NCBI GenBank assembly: GCA_029255645.1
Contig: JANLJE010000034.1
Coordinates: forward strand, 1-34,022
DNA: 34,022 nucleotides
From: Comamonadaceae bacterium
GTDB lineage: Bacteria; Pseudomonadota; Gammaproteobacteria; Burkholderiales; Rhodocyclaceae
Direction: 5' to 3'
Shown here: piece after piece, positions 3,071 to 27,010 of the stretch
Position numbering within the stretch: position 1 is the first letter of the stretch
Layout: the number at the start of each line of letters is the position of its first letter
Made by a program: the position numbers and the translations under genes
The notes under the pieces: model-generated
What the model was told of the DNA's origin: nothing
The model's database searches: none
Seen by the model: the letters and a program-made list of their open reading frames with translations, nothing else

Positions 3071-5014
3071 ATGGAATTCATCGACCTGCCCCAGATGATC
3101 TCGGCTTGCGGCACGCTCCGCCTGCCCGGTTCCAAGAGCATTTCCAACCGGGTGCTGCTGCTTGCCGCCCTGGCCGAGGGCGAAACCGAGGTGCGCGACC
3201 TGCTCGCCTCCGACGACACGGCGCGGATGCTGGAGGCCCTGCGCAGCCTGGGCATTGCCGTCACCGAACTCGGCGAGGGCGCCTGGCGCATCCGCGGCTG
3301 TGGCGGCAACATCCCCGTCCGGCAGGCCGAGCTTTTTCTCGGTAACGCCGGCACCGCCTTTCGACCCCTGACCGCGGCCCTGGCCCTGGCCGGGGGCGAC
3401 TATGTGCTCAAAGGGGTGGCGCGCATGCACGAGCGGCCCATCGGCGACCTGGTGGACGGCCTGCGCCAGCTTGGCGCCGATGTCGGCTATCTCGAGAAGG
3501 AGGGCTACCCGCCCTTGCGCCTCAAGCCCGCCCAGATCCGTGCCGGCAACGTGGTGCGGGTGCGCGGCGATGTCTCCAGTCAGTTCCTCACCGGGCTATT
3601 GATGGCGCTCCCCCTGGCCGGGGCAAGGACCACGGTGGAGGTGGTGGGGGAGCTGATCTCCAAGCCCTATATCGAAATCACGCTCGCCACCATGGCCCGT
3701 TTCGGCGTCCGGGTCGAGCGCCAGGGCTGGCAGTCCTTTACCGTGCCGGAGGGGGCGAGGTATGTGTCGCCCGGTAGCCTCTACGTCGAAGGCGATGCCT
3801 CCTCGGCCTCTTACTTCCTCGCCCTGGGCGCCATTGGCGGCGGTCCGGTGCGGGTGGAAGGGGTGGGGCGGGATTCCATCCAGGGGGATGTGCGTTTTGC
3901 CGAGGCCCTGGCAGAGATGGGCGCGGTGATCCGCATGGGCCCCAACTGGATCGAGGCCCGCGCCCCGGCCGAAGGGCTTACGGGCATCACCCTGGACTGC
4001 AATCACATCCCCGATGCCGCCATGACCCTTGCCACCACCGCCCTCTTTGCCCGGGGCGTGACCCGGCTCGAGAACATCGCCAGCTGGCGGGTCAAGGAAA
4101 CCGACCGCATCGCCGCCATGGCAAAAGAGCTGGGCAAACTCGGCGTGACCGTAAACGCGGGGCCCGACTTTCTCGAGGTGCAGCCTCCGTCCCCTGAGCG
4201 GCCGCTTCGGCCTCAGGCCATCGACACCTATGACGACCACCGCATGGCCATGAGTTTTTCCCTCGCCGCCTTCGGTACGCCCTTACGCATTCATGATCCG
4301 GGCTGTACCGCCAAGACCTTTCCCGATTACTTCGAGCGGTTTTCCGAAGTGACCCGGCCGGCCCCGGTGATCGCCATCGACGGCCCCACCGCCTCGGGCA
4401 AAGGCACCGTCTCCGCCCGGGTGGCGGCGGCCCTGGGCTTTCATTATCTGGATTCTGGCGCCCTCTATCGGCTCACCGCCCTGGCGGCCCGAAAGGCCGG
4501 GGTGGCCTGGAGCGATGAACGGGCCCTGGCCGAAGTGGCGGCGGGCCTCGAGGCGGAATTCCGGGACGGCCGCGTTTTCCTCGCGGGCGAAGAAGTGGGG
4601 GAGGCCATCCGCAGCGAGGAAATGGCGGACGGGGCCTCGCAGGTCGCGGCCCTGCCGGCCGTGCGCGCAGCCCTGCTGTTTCGCCAGCGCGCCTTTCACC
4701 GGGCGCCGGGCCTGGTCGGGGATGGGCGGGACATGGGCTCCGTGGTGTTTCCCAAGGCTACCCTCAAGGTCTTTTTGACCGCCAGCGCCGAAGTGCGCGC
4801 CGAGCGGCGCTACCAGCAGCTGCGGCAGGCCGGCCAGCCGGCCGACCTGGCCGCCATCCTGGCCGAGCTGCAGGCCCGCGACGCGCGCGACAGCCAGCGG
4901 CCGGTCGCCCCCCTGCGCCAGGTGCCCGACGCCGTCTTGCTCGATACCGATCATCTGGGGATTGAAGCGGCGGTGCAACAGGTGCTTGACGGATACGCCG
5001 CGGCCGTCCCGTAA
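3071..5014 (+). CDS. aroA-cmk: Fused EPSP synthase / cytidylate kinase
   Basis: One 647-residue protein carries two enzymes. Residues 1 to about 428 are 5-enolpyruvylshikimate-3-phosphate synthase (shikimate pathway), with [28 protein letters not shown] and YDDHRMAM motifs. From about residue 430 onward is CMP kinase, with the P-loop in [11 protein letters not shown] (about 435-445), [19 protein letters not shown], and the C-terminal RDARDSQRP. There is no stop or start between the two halves, so this is a true gene fusion. Fused forms are known in Rhodocyclaceae. ATG 3071 is preceded by TTAGGA at a good distance. In most proteobacteria cmk is followed by rpsA; here phaC follows instead. Confidence 0.95.
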
Positions 5015-5034
5015 TCCATCATTGCCGCTGCGAA

Positions 5035-5063
5035 TTGACAGTCTCATGGCTGACAGGGAGAAT
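5035..5063 (+). promoter_or_regulatory. Probable sigma-70 promoter for phaC
   Basis: A perfect -35 hexamer TTGACA (5035-5040), a 17-bp spacer and a moderate -10 GAGAAT (5058-5063) lie 20-50 bases after aroA-cmk. Transcription would begin near 5070, which fits the phaC start at 5109 and argues against upstream in-frame ATG 5046. Confidence 0.5.
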
Positions 5064-5108
5064 CGGCAGGCTCTGGAGTTTGATGCCAATTGCCCACAGG
5101 AGTCGTAT

Positions 5109-6851
5109 ATGTCGAAGGCAGAGGGAAGTAACGACGCGGTCCATCCGATGTTTCAGCAATTTTTTCAGGCCGGTCAATCCATGGCCCAGGGCTTCATGGC
5201 CTTTCTCAACCAGATGCCCCGGGATGGCGGCTTCACGCCCCCAGCGGTGCAGCTCCCACCGCAGGCAGAGGCGCTGAAATCCCTGCAGCAGGAATTCATG
5301 GCCCAGCAGGCAAAGCTCTGGCAGGCCATGCTGGCCCGCAGCCAGGGGGGACAACCCGAATTCCAGGTGGCGCCCGAAGCCGGCGACCGCCGTTTCTCGG
5401 CCCCCGAGTGGTCCGAAAGCCCCATTTACGATTACATCCGCCAGAGCTATCTGCTCAACGCCCGCTACCTGAAGGAACTGGTGGAAAAGGTGCCGCTGGA
5501 AGATGAGCGGGCCCGGGAAAAGCTGCGCTTTGCCGCCCGTCAGTACGTGGATGCACTGGCCCCCTCCAACTTTGCCGCCACCAACCCTGAATTCGTCAGG
5601 CTGGCGGTGGAAACCAAGGGCAAGAGCATCACCGACGGCATCAACAACCTGATCGCCGACCTGGAAAAAGGCCGTATTTCCATGACCGACGAATCGGTCT
5701 TCGAGGTCGGCAAGAACATCGCCACCACCCAGGGCGCGGTGATCTTTGAAAACGAGCTGATGCAGCTGATCCAGTACGAGCCCCTGACCGCCAAGGTGGC
5801 CAAGCGCCCCTTGCTGGTGGTGCCGCCCTGCATCAACAAGTTCTACATCATGGACCTGCAGCCGGAAAATTCCCTGATCCGCTTCATGGTGGAGCAGGGC
5901 CATACGGTGTTCCTGGTGTCCTGGTGCAACCCCGGCGCCGAGCAGGGCCACCTGGGCTGGGACGACTATCTGGAGCAAGGTCCCATTACCGCCATCCGGG
6001 TGGTGCAGGACATCAGCCGCCAGAAGGAAATCAACACCCTGGGTTTTTGCGTCGGCGGTACGCTGCTGGCTTCGGCCCTGGCCGTGCTGGCCGCCCGGGG
6101 CGAACAGCCAGCCGCTTCGCTGACGCTGCTCACCACCTTGCTCGACTATTCCGATACCGGCGAGATCGGTCTGTTCATCGACGAGCAGTTCCTGGCCGCC
6201 CGGGAGGCCGCCATCGGCAAGGGCGGCCTGCTCCAGGCCCGGGAACTGCAGAATACCTTCTCGGCCTTGCGGCCCAACGACCTGATCTGGAATTACGTCG
6301 CCAACAACTATCTCAAGGGCCAGAAGCCCCAGGCTTTCGATCTGCTCTACTGGAATTCCGATTCCACCAACCTGCCCGGGCCCTTTGCCTGCTGGTACAT
6401 GCGCAACCTCTACCACGACAACAGCCTGCGCATTCCGGGCAAGCTGGAAATGTGCGGCGTCAAGGTCGACCTGAGCAAGCTGGAAATGCCCACCTACCTG
6501 TTTGCCGCCCGGGAAGATCACATCGTTCCCTGGCATTCTGCTTATCAGAGCACCCGTTTGCTCTCGGGCCGGACCCGTTTCGTACTGGGGGCTTCCGGCC
6601 ACATTGCCGGGGTCATCAATCCGGCATCCAAGAACAGGCGCAGCTACTGGATTCATGACGACGTGAAAATGGATTCCGAGTCCTGGCTGGGCGCCGCCCA
6701 GGAACAGAAGGGCAGCTGGTGGAACGACTGGGCGCTGTGGATCAAGGAACATGGGGCGGGAGAAAAGGCGGCGCCCAAGAAACCGGGCAATGCCAGATAC
6801 AAGGCCATCGAGGCCGCACCCGGACGTTATGTAAAGGAAAGAGTGGTTTGA
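5109..6851 (+). CDS. phaC: Class I polyhydroxyalkanoate synthase
   Basis: Polymerises (R)-3-hydroxyacyl-CoA, mainly 3-hydroxybutyryl-CoA, into PHA on the surface of cytoplasmic granules. It has 580 residues, close to the usual length of class I enzymes. The N-terminal part matches the PhaC N domain. The lipase-like box GFCVGGT holds the catalytic Cys314, Asp470 is in AAREDHIVPW, and His498 is in ASGHIAGVINP, so the whole triad is present. ATG 5109 is chosen because AGGAG lies at 5098-5102, six bases upstream; the in-frame ATG 5046 has no such site. Unlike the classical phaCAB cluster, no thiolase gene (phaA) follows. The stop codon lies inside a tandem repeat (6847-6912). Confidence 0.96.
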   Translation: MSKAEGSNDAVHPMFQQFFQAGQSMAQGFMAFLNQMPRDGGFTPPAVQLPPQAEALKSLQQEFMAQQAKLWQAMLARSQGGQPEFQVAPEAGDRRFSAPEWSESPIYDYIRQSYLLNARYLKELVEKVPLEDERAREKLRFAARQYVDALAPSNFAATNPEFVRLAVETKGKSITDGINNLIADLEKGRISMTDESVFEVGKNIATTQGAVIFENELMQLIQYEPLTAKVAKRPLLVVPPCINKFYIMDLQPENSLIRFMVEQGHTVFLVSWCNPGAEQGHLGWDDYLEQGPITAIRVVQDISRQKEINTLGFCVGGTLLASALAVLAARGEQPAASLTLLTTLLDYSDTGEIGLFIDEQFLAAREAAIGKGGLLQARELQNTFSALRPNDLIWNYVANNYLKGQKPQAFDLLYWNSDSTNLPGPFACWYMRNLYHDNSLRIPGKLEMCGVKVDLSKLEMPTYLFAAREDHIVPWHSAYQSTRLLSGRTRFVLGASGHIAGVINPASKNRRSYWIHDDVKMDSESWLGAAQEQKGSWWNDWALWIKEHGAGEKAAPKKPGNARYKAIEAAPGRYVKERVV

Positions 6852-16300: not shown

Positions 16301-16765
16301 TTACAGGAAGCGCATCAGGAATTTGCGGCTCTGGTGATCCAGGGCCTGGCGGTCGCGGATCAGGTACTGGAGACCGTGGTGGTCGGCGATGATCAGGGCG
16401 CTTCCCCCCAGGCGGCGGATGTCTTCTTCACCTTTCAACACCAGCCGGGTGGGGCCCCGGTCGGTGTCCACTTCCCAGGTGCTGGGCGTGGCGAAGCTGC
16501 TGACGTGGCGGATGGCGCGGATTTCCGGCATGAATTCCCGCTGTTCCAGTTCTTCTTGCAGGAGCCGGGCCATGGTTTCCGGCAGTGCCGCCAGGGTGTC
16601 GATCCAGAGTAGTTCGTGGCCTTCCGGGCTCATCAGGGCCAGGCCCTGGTCGGGGGCGGTGATGGCGAAGGCGCGCACGGGCACCACGCCCGTGTGGCGC
16701 TGGCCAGCCGCGTCGGTGAACACCAGCTGGCCGAAGGCGTTGCGTTCCAGTTGCAGGGTCTTCAT
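16301..16765 (-). CDS. DUF1854 protein associated with cyanophycin metabolism
   Basis: A 154-residue cytoplasmic protein with no signal peptide or membrane segment. It matches DUF1854: the N-terminal VVPVRAFAITAPDQGLALM, then HELLWIDTLAAL, an acidic helix (LLQEELEQREF) and a conserved C-terminal part with WEVDTDRGPTRLVL and ALIIADHHGLQYLIRD. RefSeq uses the name cyanophycin metabolism-associated DUF1854 protein because the gene travels with cphA. It begins 11 bases after the ABC transporter gene, with a GAGGA ribosome site, so the two form one transcript. Its activity is unknown; a cytoplasmic partner or regulator of the transporter is the simplest inference. Confidence 0.85.
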   Translation of the reverse strand: MKTLQLERNAFGQLVFTDAAGQRHTGVVPVRAFAITAPDQGLALMSPEGHELLWIDTLAALPETMARLLQEELEQREFMPEIRAIRHVSSFATPSTWEVDTDRGPTRLVLKGEEDIRRLGGSALIIADHHGLQYLIRDRQALDHQSRKFLMRFL

Positions 16766-16776
16766 GGTGGGGGTCC

Positions 16777-19029
16777 TCAGGCTTCGGCGGGCGCCGGGTC
16801 CGATACTGCGCCCAGCACTTCGTCCAGCTGCTTGGTCTGGGCCTGGTAGAGGCGGTAATAGTGGTCTTTGCGCGCCATCAGTTCGTCGTGATTGCCGATC
16901 TCCACGATCTGGCCCCGGTCCATGACCACCAGCCGGTCGGCCTTTCTCAGGGTGGAGAGGCGGTGGGCGATGGCGATGGTGGTGCGGCCCTGGATCAGGT
17001 TGTCCAGGGCGGCCTGGATTTCCAGTTCGGTTTCCGTATCCACGGCGGAGGTGGCCTCGTCCATGATCAGGATCTTCGGGTCGATCAGCAGGGCCCGGGC
17101 AATCGAGATGCGCTGGCGCTCGCCGCCGGAGAGGGCCTGGCCCCGTTCGCCCACCAGCGAGTCGTAGCCGTGCGGCAGGCGCAGGATGAATTCGTGGGCG
17201 TGGGCGGCCCGGGCGGCGGCGACGATTTCTTCCCGGCTGGCGTCGGGGCGGCCATAGGCGATGTTCTCGGCGATGGTGCCAAAGAACAAGAAGGGCTCTT
17301 GCAGCACGAGGCCGATGTGCTTCCTGTACTCGGCCACGGGCAGGCTGCGGATGTCCACCCCGTCGATACGGATGCTTCCCTCGGTCACGTCATGGAAGCG
17401 GCAGATCAGGTTCACCAGGGTGCTCTTGCCGGAACCCGAATGGCCCACCAGGCCGATCATCTCGCCGGGGCGGATGTCCAGGTCCACGCCGCGCAGCACG
17501 GTGCGGCTGCCGTAGCGAAAGCCCACCCGCTCGATGCTGATATGGCCTTCGACCCGCTCCAGGTGCTGGGGCCGGGTGGGCTCGGGGACGCTGGAGACAT
17601 GGTCGAGAATGTCGAAGATGCGCTTTGCGGCGGAGGCGGCCTTCTGGGTCACCGAGACGATGCGGCTCATGGAATCGAGCCGGGTATAGAAGCGGCCGAT
17701 GTAGGCGAGGAAGGCGGCCAGCACGCCGACGGTGATTTGATCGTGGGCCACCAGCCAGATGCCAAAGCCCCAGACGATCAAAAGCCCGACTTCGGTCAGC
17801 AGGGTGACCGTGGGGGTAAACAGGGACCAGATGAAATTGACCCGGTCATTGACCGTCAGGTTGCGCCGGTTGGCTTCCCGGAAGCGGGCGACCTCGCGCT
17901 TTTCCTGGGCAAAGGCCTTGACCACCCGGATGCCGGGGATGGTATCGGCCAGCACGCTCGTGACCTCGGCCCAGACCCGGTCGGCCTGCTCGAAGCCGTG
18001 CCGCAGCTTGTCGCGCACGAAGTGGATCATCCAGGCGATGAAGGGCAGGGGCAACAGCGTCACCACGGCCAGCCAGGGGTTGATGGAGATCAGGATGGCC
18101 GCGGTCATGGCGATCATCAGCACGTCGGTGGCGAAATCGAGCAGGTGCAGCGACAAGAAGACGCAGATCCGGTCCGACTCGCTGCCGATCCGGGTCATCA
18201 GGTCGCCGGTGCGCTTGCCGCCGAAGTATTCGAGGGAGAGGCCCTGCAGGTGTTCGTAGGTGGTGGTGCGCAGGTCGGCGCCGATGCGTTCCGAAACCAG
18301 GGCCAGGATGTAGGTCTTGGCCCAGCCCAGGGCCCAGGCCATGAGTGCGGCCAGCAGGAGTCCGCCCAGGTAGAGGGTCACCTTGTCCTGGTCGATGGCC
18401 TGGCCGTTCTGGTAGGGAATCAGCACCTCGTCCATGAGCGGCATGGTCAGGTAGGGGGGCACCAGGGTAAAGGCGGTGGCCGCCAGCGTCAGCAGGAAAC
18501 CGGCCAGGAGCCGCCCCTGATAGGGTTTGGCAAAGCGCCAGAGGCGCAGCAGGGTCCAGGTGGAGGGGGGCTGCAGCAGGGCCTTGGCGCAGGTCGGGCA
18601 CTCTTCCTGGCCGGGCACCATGGGGTTGTGGCAATGTTCGCAGAGAATTTCTTCCGGCGCCTCGGGAGCCTGGCCGGTCGTCAGTTCGTGGATGCGGGCG
18701 GCGAAGGCATCCATCAGCCGCCGGGCCAGCATGTCCTGCCCCAGGGTGTAATGCCAGAAGGCCAGCCGGCCATGGGCATCCATGAGTTCCAGGGTCACCA
18801 CCCCGGCATGGTCCCGGCGCCGCAGGGCGAGGCCGGGCTGGCAGGTCCATTCCCGGATCGGGCCGGTGCCGCATTGGCTCAGCAGCCGCCGGGCGCTGAG
18901 CAGCAGCAGGCCGGGGGTGAAATGCAGGTTTTCATCGAGGTCGAGGGTCATGCTGGCCAGAACGCTTTCTTCCGGACTCAGCAGGGATTCGAGACGCTTG
19001 CGCAGATCGTCAAAGGGCATGGGTTGCAT
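16777..19029 (-). CDS. ABC exporter (fused permease-ATPase) associated with cyanophycin metabolism
   Basis: A 750-residue half-transporter. Residues 1 to about 125 form a non-membrane N-terminal domain of unknown fold. A zinc-ribbon motif CEHCHNPMVPGQEECPTC follows at about 130-150. The type I exporter membrane domain spans about 165-460 with six hydrophobic segments. The ATPase domain carries Walker A (GHSGSGKST), Q-loop LQEPFLFFGT, signature LSGGERQRIS, Walker B ILIMDEATSAVD and the H-loop AIAHRLS, all intact. RefSeq names such proteins cyanophycin metabolism-associated ABC transporter; the substrate is not known. ATG 19029 or 19020 may be the start; neither has a clear ribosome site. DUF1854 follows after 11 bases. 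Confidence 0.88.
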   Translation of the reverse strand: MQPMPFDDLRKRLESLLSPEESVLASMTLDLDENLHFTPGLLLLSARRLLSQCGTGPIREWTCQPGLALRRRDHAGVVTLELMDAHGRLAFWHYTLGQDMLARRLMDAFAARIHELTTGQAPEAPEEILCEHCHNPMVPGQEECPTCAKALLQPPSTWTLLRLWRFAKPYQGRLLAGFLLTLAATAFTLVPPYLTMPLMDEVLIPYQNGQAIDQDKVTLYLGGLLLAALMAWALGWAKTYILALVSERIGADLRTTTYEHLQGLSLEYFGGKRTGDLMTRIGSESDRICVFLSLHLLDFATDVLMIAMTAAILISINPWLAVVTLLPLPFIAWMIHFVRDKLRHGFEQADRVWAEVTSVLADTIPGIRVVKAFAQEKREVARFREANRRNLTVNDRVNFIWSLFTPTVTLLTEVGLLIVWGFGIWLVAHDQITVGVLAAFLAYIGRFYTRLDSMSRIVSVTQKAASAAKRIFDILDHVSSVPEPTRPQHLERVEGHISIERVGFRYGSRTVLRGVDLDIRPGEMIGLVGHSGSGKSTLVNLICRFHDVTEGSIRIDGVDIRSLPVAEYRKHIGLVLQEPFLFFGTIAENIAYGRPDASREEIVAAARAAHAHEFILRLPHGYDSLVGERGQALSGGERQRISIARALLIDPKILIMDEATSAVDTETELEIQAALDNLIQGRTTIAIAHRLSTLRKADRLVVMDRGQIVEIGNHDELMARKDHYYRLYQAQTKQLDEVLGAVSDPAPAEA

Positions 19030-19073
19030 CAGCAAGGGAGGGCGGCAGGGCGCCCTGAGGGGATACCGGGGGC

Positions 19074-19164: not shown

Positions 19165-21135
19165 TCAGAAGGGTTCCGGCTGGTGCAGGGCATAGCCCTG
19201 GGCGTAGTCCACGCCCAGTTTGCGCAGGATGGGCAGGAGTTCCGGCACGGCCACGTATTCGGCCACGGTTTTCAGCCGATGGGCGCGGGCCAGGCCGACG
19301 ATGGCTTCCACCGTGGCCCGGTCGATGGGGTCCTGCAGCAGATTGTGCACGAACTGGCCGTCGATCTTCAGGTAATCCACATGGAAGCGCTTCAGGTAGC
19401 CGAAGGAGGACAGGCCGCTGCCGAAGTCGTCCAGGGCCATGGTGGCGCCCATGCGGTGGGCATCGGCGATGAAGGCCAGGGCGCCGGCCAGATTGCCGAT
19501 GGCCTGGCTTTCGGTGATCTCGAAGCAGATCAGGCGGGGGTCGATGCGGTAATGGGTGATGCGCTCGGCGATGAAGTGGCGCAGTTCCTCCTCGGCCAGG
19601 CTGCCGCCGGAAAGGTTGATGTTGAGATGGTGAAAGGGTAAATCTCCCGCATCGAGCCGGGCCCGGATGCGGGCCAGGGCATGGTCGATGACCCAGCGGT
19701 CGATGAAGGGCATCAGATTGTAGCGTTCGGCGGCCGGGATGAATTCGCCGGGAGGCACGACGTGATCATCCTGGCCGCGCATGCGGATCAGGATTTCGGC
19801 GTGATCGGCGCTGCGGCCATCCAGGCTGCTGATACGCTGATGGTAGAGCACGAAGCGATCTTCCTGCAGGGCGGCGGTGATGCCGGTCAGGGATATGAGT
19901 TCCTGCTGGCGCTGGCGGAAATAGTCATCGCCCGGCGCATAGACTTCCACCCGGTTGCGGCCATGCTCCTTGGCGGCATAGCAGGCGGTATCGGCGGCAA
20001 TCAGCAGGCTGGTCACCGTGTTGATCTGGGGCGAGGCCTGAACGAGGCCGATGCTGGCGCCTAGCTGGAAAGACTTGTCTTCCCAGATGAAGGGCAGGGT
20101 GCGGATCTCCTCGGTCATCCGCTGGGCGCTCTGGCGGGCCTCTTCCTGGGTCTGGTTGAGGAGGACGAGGCCGAACTCGTCGCCCCCCAGGCGGGCCACG
20201 AAATCGGCGTCGAAGCGCTCGCTCATGACCTGGGCCAGGTTCTGCAGCAGGCGGTCCCCGGCGGCGTGGCCGCAGCTATCGTTGACGGCCTTGAACTGGT
20301 CCAGGTCGAGATAGAGCACATACAGGGGCTGGTTGCGGCACAGGCGCAGGGCTTCCTCGAGATAGGCCTCGAAGGCGCGGCGGTTGTGCAGCCCGGTGAG
20401 GGGGTCGTGGCCGGCCTGGTGGGCCAGTTCTTCCACCCGGGTTTCCACGGCGCTGGTCATGGCGTTGAAACTGCGGGCCAGAAGGCCGATTTCATCCTGG
20501 GTGGGGATGTCCACATGCACCTGGTAGTCGCCTTCGGCAACCCGGCTCGCCGCTTCGGCCAGGGTGCGCAGGTGGCGGGTCAGCCACAGGCTGCTGACAA
20601 GGAGCATGAGGGCCGTGAGGACGATGCCCGCCAGGGCCACGCTCAGGCCCTGCCAGATCTGGCGGCTGCGGGCGGCGGCAATGAATTCGGTCGAAAGGCC
20701 GAGCTGCACTTTGCCATAGGTCTGGCCGAGGTAGCTGACCGGAAAGCGCACGTGCAGGGTCTGCCCCCAGGGGACGCTGGCCTGGGGCTCCGGCAGGGTC
20801 TGGCCGGCAGCGATGCCGGAGGCGGCGAGGATCCGGCCCTGGAGGTCGCTCACCGCGATGTAATGCAGTTCGTCGGTCTGGCGCCAGCCATCGAGAATGT
20901 CGCGCAGGGTGGCATAGTCGCGGGCCACCAGCGGCACCGAAATGGCGGTCTGATAGGCTCGTTCGAGGGAAACCACATGCTGCTGCAACTGGCGGCCGAG
21001 TTCCTCCTCCATGCGCAGCAGGCCGCTGAACAACATGCCGGCCAGGGCCAGGAGTTCGACAACGAGGGCGGCAAAGAGGAGGCGGGAACGCAGGGAGCGG
21101 AAAAAGGGGACGGCGCTCATGCCATCCTGTTTCAT
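19165..21135 (-). CDS. Membrane GGDEF/EAL (c-di-GMP) signalling protein with periplasmic sensor
   Basis: A 656-residue inner-membrane protein: a transmembrane helix (about 18-38), a periplasmic sensor region (about 40-170), a second helix (about 175-197), a HAMP linker (about 198-250), a GGDEF domain and an EAL domain. The GGDEF site is canonical (RLGGDEFG, about residue 315), so diguanylate cyclase activity is possible. In the EAL domain the signature reads EIL, but the catalytic residues are present: FEITES, ALDDFGSG, YLKIDGQ, TVAEYV and YAQGYALHQP, so phosphodiesterase activity is also possible. ATG 21135 overlaps the stop of the upstream binding-protein gene as ATGA. This coupling suggests that the binding protein supplies the signal for the sensor region. 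Confidence 0.92.
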   Translation of the reverse strand: MKQDGMSAVPFFRSLRSRLLFAALVVELLALAGMLFSGLLRMEEELGRQLQQHVVSLERAYQTAISVPLVARDYATLRDILDGWRQTDELHYIAVSDLQGRILAASGIAAGQTLPEPQASVPWGQTLHVRFPVSYLGQTYGKVQLGLSTEFIAAARSRQIWQGLSVALAGIVLTALMLLVSSLWLTRHLRTLAEAASRVAEGDYQVHVDIPTQDEIGLLARSFNAMTSAVETRVEELAHQAGHDPLTGLHNRRAFEAYLEEALRLCRNQPLYVLYLDLDQFKAVNDSCGHAAGDRLLQNLAQVMSERFDADFVARLGGDEFGLVLLNQTQEEARQSAQRMTEEIRTLPFIWEDKSFQLGASIGLVQASPQINTVTSLLIAADTACYAAKEHGRNRVEVYAPGDDYFRQRQQELISLTGITAALQEDRFVLYHQRISSLDGRSADHAEILIRMRGQDDHVVPPGEFIPAAERYNLMPFIDRWVIDHALARIRARLDAGDLPFHHLNINLSGGSLAEEELRHFIAERITHYRIDPRLICFEITESQAIGNLAGALAFIADAHRMGATMALDDFGSGLSSFGYLKRFHVDYLKIDGQFVHNLLQDPIDRATVEAIVGLARAHRLKTVAEYVAVPELLPILRKLGVDYAQGYALHQPEPF

Positions 21136-21989
21136 CGGGTTTCGAGGCGCATCTGCTGGCGCACGATGGCGACATAGGGCGTCAGGGCCTCGAGATCGGC
21201 ATGACTGACCGGCTCATAGCCCTGGTAGCCGGTATCCTGGAAGAAACGCTGGCCTTCCGGGCTTTCGGCAAAGTTCCAGAGGGCCTTCCGGATCGCGGCG
21301 ATGCGCGGGTCGCCGAGGCGGCGGTGGGCGAGAGTCATCAGATGCGGCACACGGATTTCCAAGGGCAGTTCCACCACCTTGTTGCGTACATCGGGAGGGA
21401 TCTGCTGCAAAGGGGTGTAGGTGGTCAACGCGGCATCGGCCTCACCCACTGCCACCGCGGCGATGGCGGCGCCATGGGTGGGATATTCGCGGATGCGGTA
21501 GTCGCGCCCGGCCTGCATGCCCTTGTCCGCCAGCCATTTCATGCCGCCGATGGAGGAGACGGAAAACAGGCTGGACAAGGCGACGACCCGGCCGCGCAGG
21601 TCCCTGGCGGCCTCGATGCCGCTCCCCGGGCGGATCACGAAGATGGGCTGCAGGGTGGCCCGGTAACGGACCAGGGGCACATAGCCCTTTTCCACTGACA
21701 TCACCGCGAAATGGGGGCCGGTGATCAGCAGGTCGTAGCGTCCGGCCAGGGATTCGCGCACGAAGCGGGTATAGTCGGGGGCCGTATAGACGTCGATGGG
21801 GGTGCCCAGCTGCGCTTCCAGAAACTGACGCAGGGGCTGGTGGGTCTTGATCAGGGCCAGGGCGCTGTTGAAGGGCATGATGCCCAGGGTGAGGCGGGCG
21901 CCGGTATCGGCCTGGGCTCCGGCAAGCAGCAGCGGCAGAACGGCCAATCCTGCCAATCCTGCCAGGAGGGTCCGGCGGTCTGTATTCAT
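21132..21989 (-). CDS. PhnD-type periplasmic substrate-binding protein, likely sensory
   Basis: A 285-residue exported protein of the phosphate/phosphonate (PhnD-like) binding family. The signal peptide is MNTDRRTLLAGLAGLAVLPL with cleavage near AQA. The mature part has LGIMPFNSALALIKTHQPLR, APDYTRFVRE, YDLLITGPHFAVMS and the second-lobe VGEADAALTTYTPLQ. ATG 21989 is preceded by GGGAGAGAAG; an upstream in-frame ATG at 22055 would place the signal peptide internally. No permease or ATPase for uptake lies next to it, and its stop overlaps the GGDEF/EAL start. The likely role is therefore a ligand sensor for that protein and not a transporter subunit. The ligand is unknown; PhnD-like sensors bind phosphonates, amines or other small anions. 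Confidence 0.85.
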   Translation of the reverse strand: MNTDRRTLLAGLAGLAVLPLLLAGAQADTGARLTLGIMPFNSALALIKTHQPLRQFLEAQLGTPIDVYTAPDYTRFVRESLAGRYDLLITGPHFAVMSVEKGYVPLVRYRATLQPIFVIRPGSGIEAARDLRGRVVALSSLFSVSSIGGMKWLADKGMQAGRDYRIREYPTHGAAIAAVAVGEADAALTTYTPLQQIPPDVRNKVVELPLEIRVPHLMTLAHRRLGDPRIAAIRKALWNFAESPEGQRFFQDTGYQGYEPVSHADLEALTPYVAIVRQQMRLETR

Positions 21990-22012
21990 CTTCTCTCCCG
22001 GTTTTTTTTCGC

Positions 22013-22041
22013 AATCTAGCACTTCGGACCGGGTTTGTCTT
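22013..22041 (-). promoter_or_regulatory. Possible promoter of the binding-protein/GGDEF-EAL operon
   Basis: On the minus strand, AAGACA (-35, plus positions 22036-22041) and TAGATT (-10, plus 22013-22018) are 17 bp apart, each with four of six consensus bases, 24 bases before the ATG at 21989. Confidence 0.3.
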
Positions 22042-22075
22042 GCGCTCCTTTTCATGCCAAATGCATCATCCGGGG

Positions 22076-22218: not shown

Positions 22219-24393
22219 ATGACCCATAAAAGCATCGAATTTCGCCGCATCCAGTATCTGCGTGGTCCCAATGTCTGGACCTACCGCCCGGTTCTGGAGG
22301 CCTTGGTGGATATTGGCGAACTGGAGGATTTTCCCTCCAGCAAGATTCCCGGTTTCTACGAGCGTCTGTCGGCCTGGCTGCCCTCGCTGATCGAACATCG
22401 CTGCAGCTATGAAGAACGCGGCGGTTTCCTGCGCCGGGTCCAGGAAGGCACGTGGCCCGGCCATATCCTCGAACATGTGACCCTGGAACTGCAGAACCTG
22501 GCCGGCATGCCCGGCGGCTTCGGCAAGGCCCGGGAAGTTTCCGAACGGGGCGTCTACAAGGTGGTGGTGCGGGCCTGGAACGAGCACGTGACCCGCGCCG
22601 CCCTCCAGTACGGCCGCGATCTGGTGATGGCGGCGATCGAGGACAAGCCCTTTGATGTGGCGGCCTGCGTCGACCACCTGAAGGACCTGGTCGATGCCCA
22701 TTGCCTGGGTCCGAGCACCGGCTGCATCGTCGATGCCGCCGACGACCGGGGCATTCCCGCCATCCGCATCACCGACGGCAACCTGGTGCAACTCGGCTAC
22801 GGCTGCCGCCAGCGCCGCATCTGGACGGCGGAAACCGATCGCACCAGCGCCATTGCCGAGAGCATTTCGCGCGACAAGGACCTCACCAAGACCCTGCTCC
22901 AGTCCTGCGGCCTGCCGGTCCCCGGGGGACAACTGGTGAGCACGCCCGAGGCTGCCTGGGAAGCGGCCGAGGACATCGGCCTGCCGGTGGTGGTCAAGCC
23001 CGATGACGGCAACCACGGCCGGGGCGTGTTCCTCGACCTGAACAGCCGGGAAGAAATCGAGGCCGCCTACCGGGTCGCCAGTGAAGAAGGTAGCCATGTC
23101 ATCGTCGAGCGTTACATTCCCGGCAGCGAACACCGGCTCCTGGTGGTGGGCAGCCAGGTCGTCGCCGCCACCCGGGGCGAAATCGCCGAGGTGGTGGGGG
23201 ATGGCCGGCACAGCATCCGCGCCTTGATCGACCTGCAGATCAATGCCGACCCCCGCCGGGGCCGGAGCGAGGAGCATCCCCTCAACTTCATCGGCCTCGA
23301 TTCCGCCGTGCGTCTGGAACTCCAGCGCCAGGGTTTCACCCCCGATGACGTGCCGGCAGCAGGCCGGAAAGTGGTGGTGCAGCGCATCGGCAACCTGGCC
23401 ATCGACTGCACCGACGCGGTGCACCCGGATACGGCCCGTGCCGTGGTGCTCGCTGCCCGCATCGTCGGTCTCGACATCGCCGGGGTGGATCTGGTGGCGC
23501 AGGACATTTCCCAGCCCCTGGAGGCCCAAGGGGGGGCGATCGTCGAGGTCAATGCCGGCCCCGGCCTCCTGATGCATTTGAAACCCGCCGAGGGCAAGCC
23601 CCGGCCCGTGGGCCAGGCCATCGTCGAACTGCTGTTCCCCAACGGCGACAGCGGCCGGGTGCCCGTGGTGGGCATCACCGGGGCCCGGGGCAAGACCGCC
23701 ACGGCGCGCTTGCTGACTCATATCCTCGACCTCACCGGTCAGTACATCGGCATGGCCTGCAGCGACGGCATCTTCCTCAACCGTCGCCAGGTGGAAACTG
23801 GAGCCCGGACCGCCAAGGTCCAGTGGGAGGCGGCCCGCCGGGTGCTGATGAACCGCCAGGTCCAGGCCGCCGTGATCGAAAACGGCGCCGATGCCATCCT
23901 GCAAGAGGGCCTGGCCTATGACCGCTGCCAGGTGGGCATCGTCCTGAACAGCGCTCCCATGGCCGATCTTTCCCACCATTACGTAGAAACGCCCGAGCAA
24001 ATCTGCAACGTGCTGCGCACCCAGGTGGACGTCGTGCTCGAAGGGGGCGCCGCCGTGCTCAATGCGGCGGATGCCCAGGTGGCCGACATGGCCCGTCTGT
24101 CCGATGGCGAGGTGATCTTCTTTGCCCGGGACGGGGAGCTGCCGGTGCTGCGCGAACATGGCGTCCAGGGGGGGCGGGCGGTGTTCATCCGCGCCGGCCA
24201 GCTGGTGCTGTCCGAGGCCGGTCACGCAACCCCGTTCCTGGAGATGGCCAGCCTGCAGCCCCATCGGCTGGCCGGCGGCATGGCCAGCGACATGGCCGAC
24301 AGCCTGCTGGCCGCCGTGGCCGCTGCCTGGGCCCTGGGTCTGGGCACCGACGTGATCCGCGCCGGCCTGGAAACCTTCCCTGCTGCGGCCTGA
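22219..24393 (+). CDS. cphA': Cyanophycin synthetase-like protein CphA' (C-terminally short paralog)
   Basis: A 724-residue relative of cyanophycin synthetase, which builds the Asp-Arg storage polymer. The N-terminal domain (about 1-160) has the HILEH motif (His82, Glu85, His86), matching the HxxEH metal site reported in many CphA1 N-domains. The ATP-grasp domain follows with VVVKPDDGNHGRGV and EVNAGPGLLMHLKP. The Mur-ligase-like domain is altered: the P-loop reads GARGKTAT, ENGADAIL replaces ETARGGVL, the DHLG histidine motif is gone, and the protein ends where the C-terminal Mur domain would begin. It probably keeps only one ligase activity, like cyanobacterial CphA2. ATG 22219 fits family N-termini; ATG 22192 and 22180 are in frame. 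cphA follows after 37 bases, with an A8 run. Confidence 0.9.
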   Translation: MTHKSIEFRRIQYLRGPNVWTYRPVLEALVDIGELEDFPSSKIPGFYERLSAWLPSLIEHRCSYEERGGFLRRVQEGTWPGHILEHVTLELQNLAGMPGGFGKAREVSERGVYKVVVRAWNEHVTRAALQYGRDLVMAAIEDKPFDVAACVDHLKDLVDAHCLGPSTGCIVDAADDRGIPAIRITDGNLVQLGYGCRQRRIWTAETDRTSAIAESISRDKDLTKTLLQSCGLPVPGGQLVSTPEAAWEAAEDIGLPVVVKPDDGNHGRGVFLDLNSREEIEAAYRVASEEGSHVIVERYIPGSEHRLLVVGSQVVAATRGEIAEVVGDGRHSIRALIDLQINADPRRGRSEEHPLNFIGLDSAVRLELQRQGFTPDDVPAAGRKVVVQRIGNLAIDCTDAVHPDTARAVVLAARIVGLDIAGVDLVAQDISQPLEAQGGAIVEVNAGPGLLMHLKPAEGKPRPVGQAIVELLFPNGDSGRVPVVGITGARGKTATARLLTHILDLTGQYIGMACSDGIFLNRRQVETGARTAKVQWEAARRVLMNRQVQAAVIENGADAILQEGLAYDRCQVGIVLNSAPMADLSHHYVETPEQICNVLRTQVDVVLEGGAAVLNAADAQVADMARLSDGEVIFFARDGELPVLREHGVQGGRAVFIRAGQLVLSEAGHATPFLEMASLQPHRLAGGMASDMADSLLAAVAAAWALGLGTDVIRAGLETFPAAA

Positions 24394-24430
24394 TCATCCG
24401 AAAAAAAAGAATATCCCGAGGATTCCCGTC

Positions 24431-27010
24431 ATGGAAATTTCCCGTATCCGCGCCCTGCGCGGTCCCAATCTCTGGAGCCGGCACACCTCCATCGAGGCCA
24501 TCGTCAGCTGTGAGGAAAGCGAGCGGCAACTGAGCCGTCATCATCCGCAATTCGAAACCCGCCTGCGGGCCCGCTTTCCCGAGATCGGCCTGGTTGCCCT
24601 GGCCGACACGGCCCAGACCTATTCCCTGGCCCACGCCCTGCAGCTGTCCGCCCTGGGGCTGCAGGTCAGCGCCGGCTGCCCGGTGACCTTCGGGCGCACC
24701 ACCCAGACCGTGGAGCCCGGGGTGTATCAGGTGGTGGTGGAATACACCGAGGAAGCCGTGGGCCGCCGCGCCCTGGCCCTGGCCGAGGACTTGTGCCGGG
24801 CCGCCCTCGCTGACAGGCCCTTTGATCTGGAAAAAGCCCTGGCCGAGCTGCGCGAACTCGACGAGGACGAGCGCCTGGGGCCCAGCACCGGCGCCATCGT
24901 CCATGCCGCCATCGTCCGCAACATTCCCTGCCGCCGCCTGACTTCCGGCAGCCTCGTGCAGTTCGGCTGGGGCAGCCGCCAGCGCCGCATCCAGGCGGCC
25001 GAGATCGACCAGACCAGCGCCATTGCCGAGGCCATCGCCCAGGACAAGGATCTGACCAAGGATCTGCTCCGGGCCGCCGGGGTGCCCGTGCCCCTGGGGC
25101 GGGCCGTGCAGGATGCCGAAGAGGCCTGGGCCGCCGCCCAGGAAATCGGCGGGGCGGTGGTGGTCAAGCCCCAGGACGGCAACCAGGGCAAGGGGGTGGC
25201 GGTGAATCTCGGCAGCCGCGCGGAAGTGCTGGCCGCCTATGCCGTGGCAGCCGGGATCAGCTCGAAGGTGCTGGTGGAACGCTACCTGCCGGGCCAGGAT
25301 TTTCGCCTCCTGGTGGTGGGCAAACAGATGGTGGCCGCCGCCCGGCGCGATCCGCCCCAGGTGATCGGCGACGGCGTGCATACCATCCGCGAACTGGTCG
25401 ATCAGGTCAATAGCGACCCGCGCCGGGGGGAAGGCCATGGCACGGCGCTCACCAAGATCCGCTTCGATGACATCGCCCTCGCCACCCTGGAAAAGCAGGG
25501 CTACCAGGCCGACAGCGTGCCCCCCAAGGGCGCCCTCGTGGCGCTCCGTAACAATGCCAACCTGTCGACCGGGGGCGCCGCCACCGATGTCACCGACGAT
25601 GTGCACCCCGAACTCGCCGCCCGGGCCGTGGATGCGGCCCAGATGGTGGGGCTCGACATCTGCGGCGTGGATGTGGTCTGCCAGACCGTGCTGAAACCGC
25701 TGGAAGAGCAGGGCGGCGGCATCGTCGAAGTGAATGCGGCGCCGGGCCTGCGCATGCATCTGCAACCTTCCTTCGGGCGCGGCCGGCCGGTCGGCGAGGC
25801 GATCATTTCCCTCTTGTTCGAGGACGGCAACAATGGCCGCATTCCCGTGGTGGCCGTGGCCGGCACCAACGGCAAGACCACCACCGTGCGCCTGATTTCC
25901 CATTTGCTCACCGGCAACGGGCTGCGCGTCGGCATGACCACCACCGACGGGGTTTACATCCAGGATAAACGCATCGACACCGGGGACTGCAGCGGCCCAC
26001 GGAGCGCCCGCAACGTGCTCATGCACCCGGAGGTCGATGCCGCGGTGCTGGAAACCGCCCGGGGCGGCGTGCTGCGCGAAGGGCTGGGTTTTGACCGCTG
26101 CAATGTCGCCGTGGTCACCAATATCGGCCAGGGCGACCATCTCGGCCTGGCCTACATCAACAGCGTCGAGGACCTGGCCGTGGTGAAGCGGGTCATCGTC
26201 GAGAACGTGGCGCCGGACGGCATGGCCGTGCTCAATGCCACCGACCCGGTGGTGGCGAAGATGGCCGAACACTGTCCGGGCGGCGTCACCTTCTTTGCCC
26301 AGGACCCGCATCATCCGGTGCTGTCCACCCACCTCGCCCAAGGCAAGCGGGGGCTTTATGTCGCCGACGGCCAGATCGTCTGCTTTGCCGGGGGCGAAGA
26401 GCAGCAGCGCCTGGCCCTGGCCCAGGTGCCCCTCACCCAGGGCGGCCGCATCGGTTTCCAGGTCGATAACGTCCTGGCTGCCGTGGGCGCCGCCTGGGCC
26501 CTGGGCCTCGACTGGCTCACCATCCGCCGCCAGCTCTCGAGTTTCGTCAGCGATGCCAGCACCGCGCCGGGCCGTTTCAACCTGTTCGACTACAAGGGCG
26601 CTACCCTGATCGCCGATTACGGCCACAACCCGGATGCCATCCAGGCGCTGGTGCAGGCCATCGCGACCCTGCCTTCGCGGCGCCGGGTGGTGGTCATCAG
26701 CGGGGCGGGGGACCGGCGTGACGAGGACATCCGCCAGCAGACCCGGATCCTTGGCGCCGCCTTTGACGATGTGATTCTCTATCAGGACCAGTGTCAGCGC
26801 GGCCGGGCCGATGGCGAGGTGCTGAGCCTGCTGCGCCAGGGCCTGGAAGGGGCGAGCCGCACCACCCATGTGGATGAGGTGCGGGGCGAGTTTCTGGCCA
26901 TCGACCGGGCCCTGGAGCGGCTGGGCGAAGGGGACATCTGCCTGATCCTGGTGGATCAGGTGGAAGAAGCCCTGGCTCATATCGCCAGCCGGGTACAGCC
27001 GTCCGCATGA
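24431..27010 (+). CDS. cphA: Cyanophycin synthetase
   Basis: ATP-dependent polymerase that adds Asp to the backbone and Arg to its side chains, making cyanophycin granules for nitrogen storage. It has 859 residues, full length. After an N-terminal domain (about 1-160) come the ATP-grasp domain (VVVKPQDGNQGKGV, EVNAAPGLRMHLQP) and the complete Mur-ligase-like domain: P-loop GTNGKTTT (about 478), VLETARGGVLREGL, NIGQGDHLG, and the C-terminal GRFNLFDYKG and ADYGHNPDAI. The HxxEH position reads HALQL (His68, Gln71, Leu72), so the N-domain metal site is lost. ATG 24431 has GAGG upstream. Its stop overlaps the acyltransferase start. No cyanophycinase gene lies in the window. Confidence 0.96.
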   Translation: MEISRIRALRGPNLWSRHTSIEAIVSCEESERQLSRHHPQFETRLRARFPEIGLVALADTAQTYSLAHALQLSALGLQVSAGCPVTFGRTTQTVEPGVYQVVVEYTEEAVGRRALALAEDLCRAALADRPFDLEKALAELRELDEDERLGPSTGAIVHAAIVRNIPCRRLTSGSLVQFGWGSRQRRIQAAEIDQTSAIAEAIAQDKDLTKDLLRAAGVPVPLGRAVQDAEEAWAAAQEIGGAVVVKPQDGNQGKGVAVNLGSRAEVLAAYAVAAGISSKVLVERYLPGQDFRLLVVGKQMVAAARRDPPQVIGDGVHTIRELVDQVNSDPRRGEGHGTALTKIRFDDIALATLEKQGYQADSVPPKGALVALRNNANLSTGGAATDVTDDVHPELAARAVDAAQMVGLDICGVDVVCQTVLKPLEEQGGGIVEVNAAPGLRMHLQPSFGRGRPVGEAIISLLFEDGNNGRIPVVAVAGTNGKTTTVRLISHLLTGNGLRVGMTTTDGVYIQDKRIDTGDCSGPRSARNVLMHPEVDAAVLETARGGVLREGLGFDRCNVAVVTNIGQGDHLGLAYINSVEDLAVVKRVIVENVAPDGMAVLNATDPVVAKMAEHCPGGVTFFAQDPHHPVLSTHLAQGKRGLYVADGQIVCFAGGEEQQRLALAQVPLTQGGRIGFQVDNVLAAVGAAWALGLDWLTIRRQLSSFVSDASTAPGRFNLFDYKGATLIADYGHNPDAIQALVQAIATLPSRRRVVVISGAGDRRDEDIRQQTRILGAAFDDVILYQDQCQRGRADGEVLSLLRQGLEGASRTTHVDEVRGEFLAIDRALERLGEGDICLILVDQVEEALAHIASRVQPSA

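Follow-up and report, generated by a model that had tools for sequence, protein, structure and literature searches.

Complementary predicted peptidase and ligase sites in tandem cyanophycin synthetases of a Comamonadaceae bacterium and its relatives

Three-site cyanophycin synthetases (CphA1) combine an N domain with a peptidase site, a G domain with an ATP-grasp ligase and an M domain with a Mur-type ligase. In the Synechocystis enzyme SuCphA1, the N domain holds a metallopeptidase-like site with the motif Cx19HxxEH, formed by C59, H79, E82 and H83 with H57 in a supporting role (PMC9262961; papers are cited by such numbers for the parts of their text referred to here). This site cleaves cyanophycin, with pieces of four dipeptides (tetramers) as main product, which act as primers; it is slow and its end products are oligomers, not dipeptides (PMC9262961). 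Either the isolated N domain or a SuCphA1 whose G and M domains are inactive frees the primer-dependent TmCphA1 of Tatumella morbirosei from its need for primer when supplied in trans (PMC9262961). Sharon et al. argued in 2022 that expression offers no way to balance cutting against building, since both reside on one chain (PMC9262961). Here we describe two tandem genes, CphA' and CphA, on a stretch of 34,022 nucleotides from a Comamonadaceae bacterium (assembly GCA_029255645.1, contig JANLJE010000034.1, positions 1 to 34,022; hereafter the window; GTDB order Burkholderiales). Unlike the premise of Sharon and co-workers, the cutting and building sites lie here on separate chains.

CphA' and CphA share the N-G-M order of SuCphA1 and of a second three-site enzyme, TeCphA1, and are homologous to them throughout; CphA' keeps their N site and CphA their ligase domains. 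Unlike the three-site enzymes, the sites are spread over two proteins, which are accompanied by an ATP-binding cassette (ABC) transporter and a DUF1854 protein and usually by no recognised cyanophycinase. We consider it likely that one synthetase has been split over the two genes, with CphA' acting as a dedicated endo-cyanophycinase, in trans, on the chains of CphA. The sequences provide the split itself and its conservation, together with a tree compatible with one duplication, a swap of constraint between the two proteins, and a co-inherited ABC transporter and DUF1854 protein.

TmCphA1 resembles CphA in being without Cx19HxxEH; it retains His267 of the G domain, where CphA has Gln, and the cited part of PMC9262961 mentions no N-site partner for it. 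CphA2, the cyanobacterial beta-Asp-Arg polymerase, resembles CphA' in that the M lid is missing in most CphA' copies and the M site is ruined. CphA2 is without the N peptidase motif (PMC9262961), whereas CphA' has this motif and has lost aspartate-pocket residues of the G domain. Neighbouring cphA copies are known in beta-proteobacteria, from Sideroxydans (PMC5178258) and Accumulibacter (PMC10687191). As here, the 'Group 1' cphA cluster of activated sludge bacteria contains cphA twice together with an ABC transporter but lacks cphB, and insertion sequences flank the cphA cluster; the part of that paper referred to mentions no complementary active sites, and its figures sum the expression of both copies (PMC10687191). 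Complete genomes that encode CphA1 are most numerous in the beta-proteobacteria (903 genomes), and 2.8% of these 903 have a recognised cyanophycinase (PMC10206079). The main text of PMC9262961 makes no mention of tandem, paralog, proteobacteria, Ralstonia or Cupriavidus. In the open-licence literature, outside which most subscription papers fall, we found no paper that places peptidase and ligase sites on different copies.

Active sites of CphA' and CphA

The two reading frames lie on the same strand and are separated by 37 bases (Table 1). CphA exceeded the cut-off of the TIGR02068 family (850 bits), under which CphA' remained (755.3 bits). CphA' aligned with SuCphA1 (PDB 7lg5) over residues 12-723, and the final M-domain lobe was absent. 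An AlphaFold2 model of CphA' (32 sequences) had a mean predicted local distance difference test (pLDDT) score of 80.9, with 80-97 in the N domain by blocks of ten. Its best PDB matches were CphA1 structures, with SuCphA1 7lg5 on top and CphA2 structures ranking below. The placement of domains in this model is uncertain (root-mean-square deviation of 15.8 to 7lg5), and residue equivalences rest on the sequence alignment to 7lg5. The CphA model was weak (mean pLDDT 69.5) and was not used.

Table 1. Positions of the synthetase genes, their diagnostic sites and the partner genes in the window
Feature	Position	Strand	Basis
CphA' (724 aa)	22219-24393	+	NF010623 1063.5 bits; PF18921 N domain; 7lg5 E=1e-150
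CphA (859 aa)	24431-27010	+	TIGR02068 1003.5 bits; PF08245, PF02875
CphA' Cx19HxxEH motif (C62, H82, E85, H86; H60 just ahead)	22402-22476	+	SuCphA1 alignment; 196/196 pairs
CphA remnant at HxxEH position (HALQL, residues 68-72)	24632-24646	+	Reading frame, pair alignment
CphA' Gly320 at TeCphA1 Arg323 position (incoming-aspartate pocket)	23176-23178	+	Gly in 188/196 CphA'; Arg in 196/196 CphA
CphA' deleted NLSTGG loop (TeCphA1 Ser396 loop)	23380-23406	+	Ser396 column gap in 196/196 CphA'
CphA' Leu451 at TeCphA1 Arg458 position	23569-23571	+	Leu in 192/196 CphA'; Arg in 196/196 CphA
Cyanophycin metabolism-associated ABC transporter	16777-19035	-	NF052233 1383.6 bits (cut-off 880); PF00664, PF00005
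Cyanophycin metabolism-associated DUF1854 protein	16301-16765	-	NF052234 233 bits (cut-off 150); PF08909

In the alignment to 7lg5, H60, C62, H82, E85 and H86 of CphA' correspond to H57, C59, H79, E82 and H83 of SuCphA1, so that Cx19HxxEH is complete including its spacing. The model places H82, E85 and H86 on a helix (residues 80-94) and C62 in the loop before it. The putative zinc ligands (Cys, His, His) and the general base Glu of an inverzincin-like HxxEH peptidase are all present. Among 196 complete pairs, pooled from the two sets described below, all five N-site residues occurred in 196/196 CphA', as did equivalents of SuCphA1 F67, R70, E87 and Y110. The full site occurred in 0/196 CphA; the window's CphA and all 196 have gaps at H57 and C59. 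SuCphA1 S603 and E607, M-domain residues that contact the polymer at the N site, are replaced by Arg and Asp, respectively, in 196/196 CphA'. By analogy with SuCphA1, we infer that CphA' may bind zinc and cleave CphA-made chains in trans.

The G domain of TeCphA1 uses Lys261, Asp431 and Glu450 for ATP and magnesium and His267 and Arg309 for the acyl phosphate; next to Ser396, the incoming aspartate is held by Asn394, Arg323 and Arg458, the alanine mutants of which are impaired (PMC9427784). The ATP-grasp residues were kept in CphA' (Lys261 in 195 of 196 copies, His267 in 193, Arg309 in 195, Asp431 in 195, Glu450 in 194 and Asn452 in 195). Its aspartate pocket was altered at three places (Table 1), and the Asn394 column holds Asn in 185/196, at the edge of the deletion, where its role is uncertain. 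The pocket was retained in 196/196 CphA. With the ATP-site residues retained and the aspartate-pocket residues changed, the G domain of CphA' is not merely decaying; it would have either a different acceptor or a structural role. At the His267 position, which lies in the G-domain P-loop, the CphA of the window and 194/196 CphA have Gln; His is found in 193/196 CphA' and in all 21 solo enzymes, i.e. three-site CphA1 without a tandem partner. Glu215, which in TeCphA1 extends into the G site of the neighbouring subunit, is Glu in 193/196 CphA', 195/196 CphA and 0/21 solos. Judged from these residues, this pattern would suit a G-G dimer, either mixed or like-with-like.

In the M domain of the window's CphA', ENGADA replaces ETARGG, and DHLG and the C-terminal lobe are absent; the P-loop still reads GARGKT. 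Among the 196 copies, the P-loop Lys was found in 104, the Arg of ETARGG in 0 and Asp585 in 61, and the lid-lobe columns are gaps in 142/196 (DYxHN) and 161/196 (GDRRD). An alignment shift leaves the 21 solos with a gap at D585; it does not affect H586. CphA retains a complete M domain (P-loop, ETARGG, DHLG and C-terminal lobe). CphA' is left with an intact N motif, an altered G domain, a ruined M domain and no M-lid lobe, and CphA with both ligase domains and no N site. The three sites share a single chain in neither protein; they do so in the 21 solo loci.

Several of these features had been recognised in an earlier, sequence-only reading of the window. Its HILEH (His82, Glu85, His86) aligns with the SuCphA1 metal site, to which C62 and H60 have to be added, and the M-domain losses of CphA' and the HALQL of CphA are real. 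The statement that CphA has all ligase motifs holds for the M site and the aspartate pocket and fails at His267. Complementary loss was confirmed, with the G-domain changes of CphA' (Gly320, Leu451, Ser396 loop deletion) as an overlooked part of it. The proposed division of labour agrees at the sequence level with the 196/196 pairs and with the paralog clades and swapped constraint described below.

Survey of split pairs and solo synthetases

A GTDB genome search with CphA' as query gave 329 related stretches, the best 80 of which were retained (the named loci). CphA' and CphA adjoin in each of them. With the window included, the five N-site residues were present in 81/81 CphA' and the full motif in 0/81 CphA. 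An even sample of the order was searched by family model, and 151 of 399 genomes matched. Of 140 regions examined from 135 of the matching genomes, 119 hold a pair with the N motif in CphA' only, 11 are edge cases or exceptions, and the other 10 contain a solo CphA1 in which the N motif is present. No CphA with the N motif was found in any pair among these regions. Solo CphA1 from the order sample and from a sample of the class, 21 in all, retain residues of the N, G and M sites. CphA' preceded CphA on the same strand in 201/201 pairs (80 named loci and 121 of the order sample), with a median gap of 60 base pairs (bp) in the named loci (78 measured) and 34 bp in the order sample (120 measured). 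We conclude that the complementary split of sites is the rule in tandem pairs, not an oddity. The sequence-only reading had raised the question of other tandem pairs, and the same pattern holds in 196/196.

We considered two trivial explanations. An oddity of the window or a sequencing artefact was rejected, as 196 complete pairs agree. Ascertainment bias from the CphA' query was rejected as well, as the even family-model samples of the order and the class agree and solo loci surfaced there. A search of plasmids with CphA gave 23 records, none of them cyanobacterial.

For comparisons between genomes, 136 were classed as split, i.e. the 151 matching genomes minus 11 solo genomes and 4 with weak matches only. 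For synthetase and transporter, two candidates were scored per genome across the 399 genomes, so that extra copies could be missed. The pair itself was observed in 125/136, with 120 coming from the fetched regions and five others in addition (G000, G107, G224, G379, G539). The other 11 consist of five genomes with CphA only (G373, G417, G652, G723, G748), one with CphA' only (G397), one with neither clearly (G501) and four outside the fetched regions (G442, G506, G562, G708).

Four of the five CphA-only loci of the order sample are located at a contig end or no more than 0.7 kb from one (L152, L209, L240, L253). In the fifth, L196 of G723 (87% completeness), CphA stands alone with other DNA upstream, and the genome has no CphA' match. 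The ABC transporter and DUF1854 genes of G723 are on a different contig. L196 may reflect either a recent loss or wrong joining of the contig. In two pairs (L172, L222) CphA' is cut by the contig end and the N site is not visible. An apparent single CphA in G091 was discarded as an exception; a divergent CphA' with the N motif adjoins it. In four genomes of one genus (G422, G634, G663 and G745; loci L124, L125, L130 and L133), the split pair is accompanied by another locus, near a cyanophycinase, that encodes two full-length synthetases, neither of which has the N site.

Genome G230 encodes two CphA-like proteins, a divergent one (L105; 884 aa) in which no searched motif was found and a shorter one (L266), and had no match for cyanophycinase or the ABC transporter. 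In G167, G265, G361 and G594, proteins matching only positions 475-860 or so (the Mur part) of the CphA model lie near a three-site CphA1.

Descent and selective constraint

A G-domain tree of 75 rows, which excluded the N domain and was made with a quick method, grouped 23 CphA' in one branch (branch value 100) and 23 CphA in another (95). Both are separate from the three-site solos and from an odd group of four genomes (94). The root was not inferred, and midpoint rooting puts it on the solo side. With the root there, the tree fits a three-site enzyme that duplicated once and whose copies then underwent complementary loss.

Mean identities over 4,000 random locus pairs were, for CphA' and CphA respectively, 67.7 vs 62.1% in the N domain, 69.2 vs 71.8% in the G domain and 50.5 vs 70.2% in the M core. 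We compared nonsynonymous (dN) and synonymous (dS) substitutions between close loci in 69 disjoint pairs, of which 62-68 were usable per cell. The median dN/dS of CphA' vs CphA was 0.072 vs 0.088 for N, 0.074 vs 0.053 for G and 0.153 vs 0.068 for the M core. For N, dN was lower in CphA' in 51/65 comparisons (P=3e-6). It was lower in CphA in 47/64 (17/64 in CphA') for G (P=3e-7) and in 54/63 (9/63 in CphA') for the M core (P=2e-9; Wilcoxon tests throughout, which ignore relatedness). Constraint is swapped between the two proteins: N evolves more slowly in CphA', and G and M evolve more slowly in CphA.

The relaxed M core of CphA' (0.153 vs 0.068) would be expected of a dead scaffold or regulator, whose conserved N site merely binds the polymer. 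All 196 CphA' retain the catalytic Glu and every metal ligand, not all of which would be needed for binding alone; we regard such a role as very improbable.

The sequence-only reading had CphA' joining Asp-Arg dipeptides like CphA2, and a ligase function with another acceptor would account for the ATP-grasp residues kept in 193-195 of the 196 copies and for the constraint on G. The Arg323 position and the Ser396 loop are changed uniformly rather than randomly, and CphA2 is likewise without the M lid and the M P-loop (PMC9427784). However, Arg458 lies by the alpha-carboxylate of the incoming aspartate and should also be needed for a dipeptide; it is Leu in 192/196 CphA'. The impaired TeCphA1 mutants at Asn394, Arg323 or Arg458 (PMC9427784) point in the same direction. 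As stated, CphA2-like joining is not supported, with the aspartate-holding residues lost and CphA2 itself without the N motif, and we consider an additional ligase activity of CphA' unlikely.

The split synthetase that we favour could have arisen and could work as follows. A three-site CphA1 would have been duplicated once. Of the two copies, CphA' would have retained the N endo-cyanophycinase but neither arginine ligation nor the aspartate pocket, and CphA both ligase domains but not the N site. The chain would then be extended by CphA and cut in trans by CphA' into short pieces, probably of about four dipeptides as with SuCphA1, which could be re-extended. The in-trans precedent of SuCphA1 (PMC9262961) makes it plausible that CphA' is the primer maker for CphA. 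Two genes would let the cell tune the ratio of cutting to building, which is impossible with a single-chain enzyme.

Several observations weigh against this reading. The ligase activity of CphA is itself not certain, because it has Gln for His267, the alanine mutant of which (H267A) is G-domain-dead in SuCphA1 (PMC9262961). Near the N site, the positions of SuCphA1 E90, R100 and T101 differ in most CphA'; those of E90 and R100 vary among the solos too, that of T101 does not. The G domain of CphA' (dN/dS 0.074) is almost as constrained as its N domain (0.072), for which a pure peptidase would not account unless G serves folding or assembly. The 196 pairs appear to share one duplication, so they would be orthologs and not 196 independent events. 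Finally, wild-type Ralstonia eutropha reportedly makes no cyanophycin although two cphA homologs are present, as in strain H16 (PMC11362209); the literature searched describes no mechanism of this kind for them.

Partner genes and possible uses of the oligomers

The cyanophycin metabolism-associated ABC transporter was found in 133/136 split-class genomes, 0/11 solo genomes and 0/252 others of the order sample (relatedness ignored). The three split-class genomes without it are G487, in which the pair was seen, G501 and G652, with completeness of 79-86%. A re-search in which about 20 candidates were scored yielded 0/37 (the 11 solos, those three and 23 others), with a model that does match in the 399-genome and class searches. 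The DUF1854 protein was present in 132/399 genomes, which by table comparison are the transporter-bearing genomes minus G678. Outside the order, the transporter was present and cyanophycinase absent in 3/3 split genomes of the wider class, and 11/11 solos there had cyanophycinase and no transporter. At least four families (f1, f3, f192, f205) show patchy presence, so that the distribution is not simply that of one clade.

In 78/80 named loci the transporter lies upstream of CphA' at a distance of 108-617 bp, divergently in 70 and co-directionally in 8; one of the two remaining loci has no upstream flank. The transporter of the window is not adjacent to CphA'. A GGDEF-EAL protein and a PhnD-like binding protein (19165-22055, minus strand) sit between them, and these two genes seem to have been inserted, because the transporter is within 617 bp of CphA' in 78/80 named relatives.

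A cyanophycinase above the family cut-off was found in 7/69 split genomes tested and in 11/11 solo genomes of the order. Four of these seven have one beside the extra synthetase locus of the single genus described above, and two further genomes of the 69 gave a weaker match only. No cyanophycinase was found in the window's own genome. One conceivable use of the N site would be as a replacement for the missing enzyme, with CphA' degrading stored polymer on mobilisation. The 62/69 split genomes without a cyanophycinase above cut-off (two of them with the weaker match) and its rarity among the 903 beta-proteobacterial CphA1 genomes (2.8%; PMC10206079) would be in line with this. The N site of SuCphA1, however, is slow and yields oligomers rather than dipeptides (PMC9262961), and the close tandem arrangement of the CphA' and synthetase genes speaks for a joint role in synthesis. 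Such a substitution seems improbable to us.

The transporter carries ABC_membrane and ABC_tran on one chain, and its next-best NCBIfam matches are MsbA-like and type I secretion. Transporters with these two domains on a single chain are usually exporters. The transporter and the usual lack of cyanophycinase speak against regarding the system as one of ordinary storage. The sequence-only reading, in which CphA' makes primers and/or joins dipeptides, overlooked the transporter, the DUF1854 protein and the usual absence of cyanophycinase; in view of these, the making of primers for a storage polymer is doubtful as the sole purpose.

The cuts may instead serve product size or release, with CphA' trimming chains to short oligomers that the ABC transporter exports. 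The near-exclusive occurrence of the transporter with split pairs (133/136 vs 0/11 and 0/252, with 0/37 on re-search, and 3/3 vs 0/11 in the class), its position beside CphA' in 78/80 named loci (108-617 bp) and the scarcity of cyanophycinase (7/69 split vs 11/11 solo genomes in both order and class) are consistent with export. So are the tetramers chiefly yielded by SuCphA1 (PMC9262961) and the lack of cyanophycin in wild-type R. eutropha (PMC11362209). On the other side, the NCBIfam name denotes association and neither a substrate nor a direction of transport, and in the window two genes separate the transporter from CphA'. Activated sludge made cyanophycin according to work cited in PMC10687191, in a passage that names no producing cells. 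Short oligomers would also double as primers, so that the roles overlap. We see export as a possibility to be taken seriously, though not as the probable purpose of the cuts.

Tentatively, the four genes for DUF1854 protein, ABC transporter, CphA' and CphA might form a beta-proteobacterial export system, in which an oligomer of arginine and aspartate, made and cut by the split synthetase, would leave the cytoplasm. This would be a second, non-storage mode, mostly exclusive of the storage type with three-site CphA1 and cyanophycinase.

The split synthetase bears on why beta-proteobacteria are mostly without a recognised cyanophycinase, and suggests that assays of the ligase copy alone in such bacteria miss half of the enzyme. 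The old puzzle of what cyanophycin genes do where no cyanophycin has been shown becomes testable with two genes in Escherichia coli. The host of the window also has a carbon storage polymer gene, for a class I polyhydroxyalkanoate synthase (4962-6851, plus strand).

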